Below are positions 3,191-21,230 of a stretch of 43,236 nucleotides of DNA, in pieces (positions within the stretch are counted from its first letter, which is position 1; every line of letters begins with the position of its first letter). A model generated the notes under the pieces. It made no database searches. It was not told the origin of the DNA and was given only the letters and a program-made list of their open reading frames with translations. The position numbers and the translations under genes are program-made. Source of the stretch: Desulfobacterales bacterium (GTDB lineage: Bacteria; Desulfobacterota; DSM-4660; Desulfatiglandales; Desulfatiglandaceae); NCBI GenBank assembly GCA_014382905.1, contig JACNIU010000486.1, positions 1 through 43,236 on the forward strand. Direction: 5' to 3'.

Positions 3191-3300
3191 TATTGGCTGT
3201 ACCAGCGTTCTTCTTTCAACCTGATAGGGAAAGAGGATTCAAAATGCTCCACGGTCACCCAGAAACCCCGTTACTCCGAACAAAAGGAGAGCGGGGTTTT
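3191..3300 (+). repeat. Repeat family A, copy 2
   Basis: This is the second copy of the element described at 1143-1251, in the same orientation and with the same order of blocks, including GGGAAAGAGGATT and ACCCCGTTACTC. A short open frame crosses it, but the two copies are not conserved in any shared reading frame, so they look like RNA or DNA elements and not genes. Confidence 0.6.
3263..3300 (+). terminator. Terminator hairpin of repeat family A copy 2
   Basis: AAACCCCG at 3263-3270 pairs with CGGGGTTT at 3292-3299, with an inner ACTCC/GGAGA pairing. A-rich and T-rich flanks on both sides suggest it can work in both directions. Confidence 0.65.
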
Positions 3301-3344
3301 GTATTTTGTAGCCCCGGGAAAAACGCATGGCAAAAGATATGGGA

Positions 3345-3456
3345 TCAGGACGTGGGGATAAATCACGACAGTTTACAATTAACAGCGAGGCTAAAAACCA
3401 CATAAAATAAGATAGTTGGATTCGTTATTTACTTACAAATGGATGTCCCGTATACC
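3345..3456 (+). repeat. 112-bp direct repeat, left copy
   Basis: It begins TCAGGACGTGGGGATAAATC and matches 4554-4665 over 112 bases without gaps, with about six mismatches. The two copies are 1209 bases apart and bracket the AbiEi antitoxin gene. No gene crosses this copy convincingly. Confidence 0.9.
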
Positions 3457-3478
3457 GTACGATCAGTCCGGAAATTGC

Positions 3479-3521
3479 TTGACGATTCTATTCATAACAC
3501 GTAAAAAATTTGCGGGTTATG
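3479..3521 (+). promoter_or_regulatory. Upstream copy of a duplicated promoter/operator
   Basis: TTGACG at 3479-3484 is followed after 17 bases by TAAAAA at 3502-3507. The imperfect palindrome CATAACACG...CGGGTTATG spans 3493-3521. The same layout recurs 87 bases downstream at 3566-3607. AbiEi proteins are known to repress their own operon by binding two inverted repeats, which fits this pair; the binding itself is inferred. Confidence 0.55.
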
Positions 3522-3565
3522 GCAACCGGAATCAAGTTTGAGTTTGGCTGGCCTCAAGAATCGAC

Positions 3566-3607
3566 TTGACAATATCTTTTGTTACACGTAGAACAATTGC
3601 GTGTTAT
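3566..3607 (+). promoter_or_regulatory. Promoter with overlapping inverted-repeat operator for the AbiEi gene
   Basis: TTGACA at 3566-3571, a 17-base spacer and TAGAAC at 3589-3594 form a plausible sigma-70 promoter 40 bases before the gene. The inverted repeat GTTACACG...CGTGTTAT (3581-3607) covers the -10 box, so a bound repressor would block RNA polymerase. It is the near-twin of the element at 3479-3521. Confidence 0.6.
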
Positions 3608-3634
3608 TCGAATAAATATCAAAAGTGATCGATA

Positions 3635-4441
3635 ATGAAGCTGATGCCTTTTTTCCGCACACATCCTGTTTTTAACGTCGAGGAGTTTGCCGGGTTTCTG
3701 TCTTCCGATGGAACTCACAACGTAAGAACCCAGGAATCTCTCCTTGCCTACCATGTGAAAGCGGGTAATATTGTCCGGGTCCGCCGTGGGCTCTATGCAT
3801 CCGTTCCCCCAGGGGCATCGCCGGAAAACTTCCCCATAGACCCATTCCTCCTTGCCGCCCGAATATCGAAAGGCGCTGTTTTGGCTTACCACACGGCGCT
3901 GGAGGCCCATGGAAAGGCCTATTCGGTGTACGAACACTTTACTTATCTTGTAAACAAACCCATACCCCTGATAACCTTTCGCTTTCATTTGTTCAAAGGG
4001 GTAAGATTTCCGCAGGCCCTCGTAAGAAAGAAGGTGGAATTTTTTGACGTGATGCAAGCCGATCGTTCGGGAATGGAAATACGCATTACTGGACTTGAGA
4101 GGACCTTCGTAGATGTACTGAACCGTCCCGGCTTGTCGGGAAGCTGGGAAGAAATATGGCGGTCCCTGGAAACCGTTGAGTATTTCGATCTCGATAAGGT
4201 TACGGAATACACATTACTTTTGGGAAACGCCACTGCCGCTGCAAAAGTGGGCTTTTTTCTGGACCAGCACCGGGAACCTCTGATGGTTGAAGACGTCCAT
4301 TTAAAGGCAATCCATGATCTTTGTCCGCGCCGACCCCACTACATGGAAAGAAGCCTACGAAAATCCGGTCGCTTTGTTTCCGCCTGGAACCTGGTTGTTC
4401 CCGAAGAAATCATCCATCGGTCATGGGAGGAATCGTGGTGA
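3635..4441 (+). CDS. abiEi: Type IV toxin-antitoxin AbiEi-family antitoxin, orphaned
   Basis: The protein has 268 residues and starts at ATG 3635. It has an N-terminal winged-helix DNA-binding part (about residues 1-75, ending VRRGLYASVPPG) and the conserved AbiEi body with LAARISKGAVLAYHTALEAHG and RITGLERTFVDVLNRP. AbiEi proteins neutralise the AbiEii nucleotidyltransferase toxin without direct contact and repress their own operon through paired inverted repeats; two such repeats lie upstream. The partner toxin gene overlaps its stop codon but is cut off after about 40 codons, so this antitoxin has no working partner here. The gene sits inside 112-bp direct repeats. Confidence 0.88.
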   Translation: MKLMPFFRTHPVFNVEEFAGFLSSDGTHNVRTQESLLAYHVKAGNIVRVRRGLYASVPPGASPENFPIDPFLLAARISKGAVLAYHTALEAHGKAYSVYEHFTYLVNKPIPLITFRFHLFKGVRFPQALVRKKVEFFDVMQADRSGMEIRITGLERTFVDVLNRPGLSGSWEEIWRSLETVEYFDLDKVTEYTLLLGNATAAAKVGFFLDQHREPLMVEDVHLKAIHDLCPRRPHYMERSLRKSGRFVSAWNLVVPEEIIHRSWEESW

Positions 4442-4614
4442 GGATATCCTCTGAAATGCTGATCACCCAGGCTGAGGCTACAGGTTTCCGAACGGATATT
4501 CTGGAAAAAGTCGGCCTTCTGATCCATCTGCTTGAAGCCTTGCGCAGTCGTTCTCAGGACGTGGGGATAAATCACCACAGTTTACAATTAACAGCGAAGC
4601 TAAAAACCACATAA
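4438..4614 (+). pseudogene. Truncated AbiEii nucleotidyltransferase toxin
   Basis: A GTG at 4438 overlaps the antitoxin stop (GTGA) and has GGGAGG seven bases upstream. The product begins with ISSEMLITQAEATGFR and continues DILEKVGLLIHLLEALRS, the typical start of AbiEii toxins. At 4554 the sequence runs into the right 112-bp repeat and ends at 4614. The nucleotidyltransferase core (GGTAL and the DxD motif) is absent, so it cannot be catalytic. The break falls exactly at the edge of the repeat. Confidence 0.85.
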
Positions 4615-4665
4615 AATAAGATAGTTGGATGCGTTACTTACTTACAAATGGACGTCCCGCATACC
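4554..4665 (+). repeat. 112-bp direct repeat, right copy
   Basis: This is the right copy of the repeat at 3345-3456, same orientation and no gaps. Its first base marks where homology of the AbiEii toxin stops. A short GC-rich hairpin (CCCCCGAC...GTTGGGGG) follows at about 4735-4753. Confidence 0.9.
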
Positions 4666-4811
4666 CACACGGGATAGTAGCGTGAGGCGGCGTTTAAGTG
4701 ATGGATTAGCTGTTCACAAATATTAGACAGCAGACCCCCGACAGTTGGGGGAGGGGTGAACGACGGTTGGGAGTTTTAAGATCTCTCAATTTTTCGTAGG
4801 TGGAGAAAGTT

Positions 4812-14956: not shown

Positions 14957-15510
14957 AATATCCCGCACCCAGAGAAGAATATCGAGCAGTCCCACGCAAC
15001 TGCCGCTCGTTATGAAGCTGCTCGATAAAGTCTGGAAGGCAATCCTTTGAAAACCGAGGTCATGTATGAGCGAAATCCAGCTTTTCAGATCCGAAATGGA
15101 GGCCAAAGGGCATGCACATCAAGTGCATACTTACGGTATACATGCATAAAGTGTAAAGGGGAGTGTAAAGGGGGACGCTCTTTATGAATTTAACTGGAAC
15201 AGCAGCTATCTGTCCTTTAACAGGAAATGTATGCAGACAAGCATGGCATATTGTCACTGAAGAACGGTATTATGAAAGGTTACACTACCGTATCGGAGGT
15301 AGAGCTTATAGGCAAGAAAGCACTTTTTATACCGATTAACCGAGATATTATATTTTGAAAGAGCGTCCCCCTTTCCTCCCCCGCGTAGAATTCCTCCTCA
15401 GTTTAAACCGTTACCGCGTGTTTCCTCTCGCCTCCGAACTGGAGAATCTGGAAGAAGCCCATTCCGGGCCATCAACTTAAATCGATGAGGATAACGATAA
15501 GGAGAGATCG
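14957..15510 (+). other. Stretch of gene relics around a REP/MITE element
   Basis: No intact gene is seen. The + strand holds short open pieces: MKLLDKVWKAIL near 15010-15050, MSEIQLFRSEMEAKGHAHQ from about 15066, and, at 15377-15480, PFLPRVEFLLSLNRYRVF running into PLASELENLEEAHSGPST and a TAA. None has a full domain. The middle of the stretch (15167-15374) is a miniature inverted-repeat element. The DUF2283 gene begins at its right end. Confidence 0.5.
15167..15374. mobile_element. 208-bp REP/MITE-like element with perfect 17-bp terminal inverted repeats
   Basis: The left end AAAGGGGGACGCTCTTT (15167-15183) and the right end AAAGAGCGTCCCCCTTT (15358-15374) are exact reverse complements. 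The first 73 bases recur at 16003-16075 with two mismatches. Inside is only a 28-codon open frame (MKGYTTVSEVELIGKK...), with no transposase. This structure suggests an element moved by a transposase encoded elsewhere, perhaps of the REP-associated tyrosine transposase type; that assignment is from memory of similar ends in related genomes and is not proven here. Confidence 0.7.
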
Positions 15511-15934: not shown

Positions 15935-16002
15935 GATGCGGGTCGAAGGTATCGCTCGATTAAAGTAACGAAATGTGTTACTTTGCCTGCGCAATTCATT
16001 AT

Positions 16003-16075
16003 AAAGGGGGACGCTCTTTATGAATTTAACTGGAACAGCATCCATCTGTCCTTTAACAGGAAATGTATGCAGACA
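16003..16075 (+). repeat. Solo left end of the REP/MITE-like element
   Basis: It matches 15167-15239 at 71 of 73 positions, starting with the same 17-bp terminal sequence, but no right-end inverted repeat follows. Minus-strand frames across both copies share a peptide reading CLHTFPVKGQ and PVKFIKSVPLY, which is a by-product of the repeat and not a protein family. Confidence 0.8.
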
Positions 16076-20740: not shown

Positions 20741-21230
20741 GATACCTTAGATTTTCGGCTCATGTCAAGGTACTGGTTACTGGGTGCTGGATTCTGGTTA
20801 CTCGATAGTGGTCGAAGCACACGTCTTTAGCGGGAATGGCGGATGGCAACGAATTTCCTCAAGGTTAAATCGCTCTGGATGAATCGAGCCGTTCTACTTA
20901 ACGACGATAAATAAAAAAAAGGTAACACTTTAGCCGTTTGAAACAAAGCGTTGGACCATGAGGGTCTCTTTCCCAAAGGACGTAACAAAAGTAGTCCAGA
21001 GCGTATAGAACGCCCCCTTGACGTTCAATACAGATTCCGGGCAGGCAGAGACGATGTCCGTTTAAATGAATACCTTTTTCTGGGGCTGTCCAGTGACGAA
21101 TTTCAAGGCCTCGCTGCCGTTCTTATGAAACGATCCACGTATTTACGTCCTTTGGGAAAGAGACCCTCATGGTCCCGGGCAACAAACGAACGATTGTTTC
21201 AAGAATCTAAAGTGATATAAGCAATCTCTT
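20741..21230 (+). other. Gene-free stretch holding a CCAG-type repeat and a MITE-like element
   Basis: No gene is convincing between the glycosylase and EF-G. Near 20765-20805 lies a degenerate run (ACTGGTTACTGGGTGCTGG...CTGGTTACTCG) whose reverse complement resembles the CCAGCATCC-type repeat at 6125-6165. The rest is dominated by the inverted-repeat element at 20953-21176. Confidence 0.5.
20953..21176. mobile_element. MITE-like element with perfect 33-bp terminal inverted repeats
   Basis: Positions 20953-20985 and 21144-21176 are exact reverse complements over 33 bases, separated by 158 bases. The left arm begins GGACCATGAGGGTCTCTTTC. Weaker symmetry extends outward to TTGAAACAA (20938) and TTGTTTCAA (21193). 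There is no open frame inside with a recognisable product. It sits directly upstream of the EF-G gene, so it could supply or alter its promoter or leader. Confidence 0.75.

Follow-up and report, generated by a model that had tools for sequence, protein, structure and literature searches.

AbiE modules are phage-defence toxin-antitoxin (TA) systems of type IV in which the AbiEi antitoxin, with its N-terminal winged-helix domain, is encoded in a coupled bicistronic arrangement with an adjacent nucleotidyltransferase (NTase) toxin, AbiEii; mutation of the conserved NTase motifs abolishes the toxicity of the S. agalactiae protein (PMC3985639). Type IV antitoxins standing without their partner have been recorded in a survey of marine metagenome-assembled genomes (MAGs), in which the route of partner loss is left unresolved (PMC12654330). 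A second group of described systems bears on the locus presented here, namely the REP/RAYT and TIRtron/TIRYT families of dispersed repeats, in which inverted ends placed around a Y1 transposase gene form the layout termed TIRtron (PMC3733652). The analysed window is a stretch of 43,236 nt that constitutes contig C479 of a 4.56-Mb Desulfobacterales MAG (500 contigs, 7.7% contamination). It carries an AbiE operon in which pseudogenisation of the toxin gene is confirmed: the gene breaks off next to a shortened copy of a dispersed, RAYT-type repeat, whereas the antitoxin gene is intact and now stands without a partner.

All features of the locus lie on the forward strand. Repeat search and alignment identify two 112-nt direct copies, at 3345-3456 and 4554-4665, which are 95% identical and ungapped, with six mismatches and no more than 32 identical nt in succession; their flanks show no mutual similarity. 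As an earlier note on this DNA had claimed, they bracket an intact AbiEi frame; its length is 268 aa. The 1209 nt by which that note set them apart is the right figure, but it is a start-to-start distance and not a gap. Between the copies, the match to the intact AbiE operons of relatives spans exactly 3458-4549, beginning 2 nt past the end of the left copy and ending 4 nt (GTTC, 4550-4553) short of the right one, so that toxin homology is indeed lost at the right copy but four bases ahead of its first base, where the loss had been placed. This match takes in the abiE upstream region common to relatives (3458-3634), the antitoxin and transcriptional regulator gene abiEi (3635-4441), and a remnant of abiEii (4438-4549) recognised by PADLOC and by comparison with intact homologues. 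AbiE systems have inverted-repeat operators ahead of abiEi; the upstream region here contains a 13-nt inverted repeat (3493-3505/3509-3521), but a repeat search of the related locus L038 gave no such pair, though the region aligns.

AbiEi is an open frame matched by Pfam (AbiEi_4, 27.4 bits) and PADLOC (AbiEi, 378 bits, E 4.6e-114), and with these matches it has the N-terminal winged-helix domain of the type IV family; it is the single AbiEi of this type found in a search of the assembly. The GTG start of abiEii (4438-4440) overlaps the abiEi stop TGA (4439-4441), as had been read from the sequence earlier, and the locus thus shares with described AbiE systems (PMC3985639) the AbiEi family protein, the 4-nt start/stop overlap of the coupled bicistronic arrangement and an upstream region conserved in relatives. 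It differs in its toxin, of which 37 codons remain, and no adjacent NTase toxin is present. After these 37 native codons the abiEii frame runs into the repeat and stops at 4612-4614; the resulting 39-codon stub aligns to positions 1-37 of the PADLOC AbiEii profile, and the right repeat copy stands where the last ~285 codons would be. Alignment with intact homologues shows that the stub ends ahead of the LALKGGTALN segment, which we take to carry the glycines of NTase motif I, and none of the NTase motifs is left in it. The rest of this AbiEii is absent from the assembly, the stub (4438-4674) being the sole match in the genome search; more distant AbiEii-family genes do occur in the genome.

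Ranked by protein identity, the closest AbiE relatives come for the most part from Desulfobacterales and Syntrophales-type MAGs. Three loci (L038, L039 and L071) combine an AbiEi that is 82-89% identical with a full AbiEii of ~323 aa, and many further loci carry full AbiEii operons with lower AbiEi identity. Intact AbiEii without the repeat is found in L038, L039, L040, L041, L042 and others, and no repeat match occurs in AbiE loci L037-L053, so the repeat is not a normal part of AbiE. These repeat-free loci with complete toxins bear out the proposal that the operon was broken at the right repeat, with loss of the toxin and orphaning of the antitoxin; the opposite arrangement, in which the repeat belongs to complete AbiE loci of relatives, was not encountered. 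An assembly artefact, i.e., a chimeric join at the repeat, might be suspected in so fragmented and contaminated a MAG with a dispersed repeat in it, yet we consider it very improbable: with at most 32 nt of uninterrupted identity, the two copies are unlikely to have been misjoined to each other, and the abiEii/repeat junction lies outside any shared repeat, where a k-mer misjoin would not produce it.

The repeat itself extends well beyond 112 bp. When positions 3195-3460 were searched in the genome and in relatives, 20 matching pieces were found in the genome at at least 15 separate places, with matches in 7 of 40 relatives; the repeat is dispersed and multicopy across the genome and, judging from the copies read, mostly intergenic. 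The left copy is its full form (~260 bp, 3201-3456), composed of a hairpin-bearing 5′ part (~3201-3344) followed by the 112 bp. Because the left copy belongs to this longer repeat, the length of 112 bp is set by the surviving extent of the right copy; what the earlier note had treated as a unit is instead the 3′ part of a dispersed element not tied to AbiE. The 5′ part holds a terminator-like hairpin at 3263-3299 (z -4.2, with 3258-3310 folded). The 112-bp part has no notable fold compared with shuffled sequences (z +1.5 and -0.1), and its identification as an integron attC or a classical REP was rejected on this lack of a significant fold. No RNA family was matched in Rfam at gathering thresholds or at E<=1. 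In the other copies, the 3′ parts are shortened or diverged, and the right copy is the sole one found by the genome search that has the whole 112 bp but not the 5′ part. Elsewhere in the window, the 5′ hairpin part recurs at 1172-1256, there without the 112-bp part. The closest copy of the repeat, on another contig (L004, G000:C440), contains a 255-bp insert at ~2269-2523 (contig coordinates) with perfect 22-bp inverted ends and an ~8-bp imperfect target duplication, corresponding to a nested MITE-like insertion.

A link to transposases comes from the terminal sequence of the repeat (3425-3449), which closely matches inverted ends bracketing Y1/RAYT transposase genes elsewhere. These terminal 25 bp define their own family of ends, with 19 matches in this genome and 40 when 46 genomes of the family are counted together, and 0 in either case for a reversed-pattern control. 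Genomes G025 and G054 each have such ends in inverted orientation around a 335-350-aa Y1_Tnp (IS200-like) protein (L016 and L142; E 8.7e-10 and 2.9e-11). These two Y1/RAYT genes, from the genomes of two different families, lie exactly between inverted TTACAAATGGACGTCCC copies (L016 432-1526, L142 84-1178), and solo TTACAAATGGACGTCCC ends are numerous elsewhere. The repeat resembles the REP/RAYT and TIRtron/TIRYT families (PMC3733652) in that its 25-bp end is like the inverted ends around a Y1 gene and most copies are solo and dispersed. It departs from them in its length of ~260 bp and its non-palindromic 112-bp part, which folds like shuffled sequence and is not the short tagged palindrome (GTAG or CGTC) of classical REPs. 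The transposase-end match covers only the 3′ end of the repeat, and a search of the genome itself found no transposase with these ends: none of its six Y1 matches, two of which are cut by contig ends, has them. With no RAYT bearing matching ends among these Y1 genes, the inference that a RAYT-type enzyme mobilises, or once mobilised, the element is drawn by analogy.

Other repeats were seen in the same genome. Two contigs (G000:C490 and C143; L130 1-439 and L131 1-439) begin within 98% identical Y1 transposase genes, and the assembly was probably interrupted at these points by a RAYT-like gene present in several copies. Within the window, a 74-bp direct repeat (97%) at 15166-15239 and 16002-16075 has an inverted partner arm at 15348-15382, in which GGGGGACGCTCTTTATGAATT resembles RAYT-type ends. 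A 223-bp repeat at 20953-21175, with perfect 33-bp terminal inverted repeats, has at least 40 genome copies at 90-100% identity; the flanks of two copies are alike too, and the unit may be longer.

The match to RAYT unit ends at its 3′ side would also suit the idea that the 112-bp stretch forms a transposable unit of its own, which was inserted into abiEii, the remaining toxin being removed later or simultaneously. In the three most similar copies, a GGACGT-like motif stands at the start of the stretch and, as GGAYGTCCC, at its end. The 5′-side GGACGT, however, is confined to these three, being absent from the more diverged copies on C449, C25 and C272; the genome yielded no second whole 112-bp copy lacking the 5′ part, and the stretch has no special fold. 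We regard this reading as improbable.

How the two copies came to flank the operon is best approached through their distances from each other and from the unlinked C440 copy. Left, right and C440 copies differ at 6 of 112 positions in every pair, with three private changes each. This equidistance indicates that the right copy is not a recent duplicate of the left and lends less support to the duplication or excision between repeats that the earlier note had offered as an alternative. Two separate copies of the element combined with a deletion are a better fit than a local duplication, although gene conversion could also produce equal distances. A single event can be envisaged instead, in which a 1092-bp AbiE fragment was inserted at the end of one element copy while 112 bp were re-copied by template switching during repair. 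Such an event would account for both junctions and for a full-length left copy beside a partial right one, but it predicts that left and right are each other's closest copies, against the equal distances of all three pairs, and the base at position 100 is common to the left and C440 copies and not to the right one; we hold it to be unlikely.

The reading that we consider fairly probable is that of a degenerate type IV AbiE operon that came to be flanked by two separate copies of the dispersed element, a deletion then fusing abiEii to the downstream copy and leaving an orphan antitoxin. In this deletion, abiEii would have lost its 3′ part and the downstream element copy its 5′ part, so that codon 37 of the toxin was joined to the interior of that copy. 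Neither an empty site nor an intermediate stage came to light: six relatives with the downstream oxidoreductase gene share neither its neighbouring genes nor the intergenic sequence, and the order of events is therefore not directly seen. Since the AbiEi frame and the upstream region are retained, the expected outcome would be an orphan antitoxin under its own repression, with no toxin activity left.

Toxin loss of this sort is not confined to the window. The toxin was checked at 40 AbiEi loci of the subfamily (17 from a first search, 9 further loci including the window, and 14 more), duplicates being counted once (L070 = L039, L084 = L046). It is broken in 10 of the 40, by lesions of different kinds: deletion of most of the gene (L037), pieces in different frames (L046), a cut at codon 36 (L047), loss of nearly all of the gene, with AbiEi beginning at a contig end (L048), a stop plus frameshift (L049), an internal deletion (L050), internal and 3′ loss (L074), 5′ loss (L076), a cut near codon 45 (L093) and, in the window, the junction at the repeat after 37 codons. 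An intact toxin beside a demonstrably broken antitoxin was found in none of the 40 loci. Three candidates for broken antitoxins, L097, L108 and L111, were rejected as contig ends, AbiEi in L097 running off the contig; in L113 the toxin is frameshifted and the antitoxin only partial. With gene length as the null, and for loci that are not phylogenetically independent, 10 toxin versus 0 antitoxin lesions have a one-sided probability of 0.0024. The count comes mostly from antitoxin-started searches and leaves out two toxin fragments in G119; an even phylum sample alone gives 3 versus 0. The marine MAG survey, with 118 type IV orphan antitoxins versus 9 type IV orphan toxins (PMC12654330), points in the same direction, and toxin-biased loss is thus not new in kind. 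It follows as a simple outcome if the toxin cannot outlive the antitoxin. As gene decay, the AbiE toxin loss in the window is of an ordinary kind, and its recurrence among relatives is modestly interesting.

The substitution pattern of AbiEi fits either a recent loss of the toxin or continued constraint. In pairwise comparisons, AbiEi of the window has a dN/dS of 0.13-0.22, similar to relatives, and of the changes private to it 12 are nonsynonymous and 12 synonymous, compared with 34 and 73, respectively, on the terminal branches of four relatives (Fisher p 0.10); relaxed selection was considered on these figures, which are not decisive. A 58% identical AbiEi is carried by a Desulfomonile plasmid, and a role as guard against plasmid-borne AbiE would therefore be possible. 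That differing lesions broke the toxin in a quarter of the loci while the antitoxin frame stayed undamaged suggests a broader reading, in which selection would maintain the stand-alone AbiEi proteins of these sulfate reducers and related bacteria once the toxin has been lost, as has happened repeatedly, and the proteins would either protect against plasmids that bring in AbiE or act as new regulators; we put this forward tentatively, as a rather doubtful possibility.

Like the orphans of the marine survey (PMC12654330), the window AbiEi is an antitoxin without its partner; unlike there, both the lesion and the repeat are visible here. The locus illustrates in molecular detail how a type IV antitoxin becomes an orphan, in this case at a dispersed mobile-element-like repeat. 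Together with its relatives, it forms a small natural data set, with ten toxin lesions differing in kind and no antitoxin lesion beside an intact toxin, for testing whether AbiEi orphans are relics or are maintained because they give immunity to cognate AbiE toxins.
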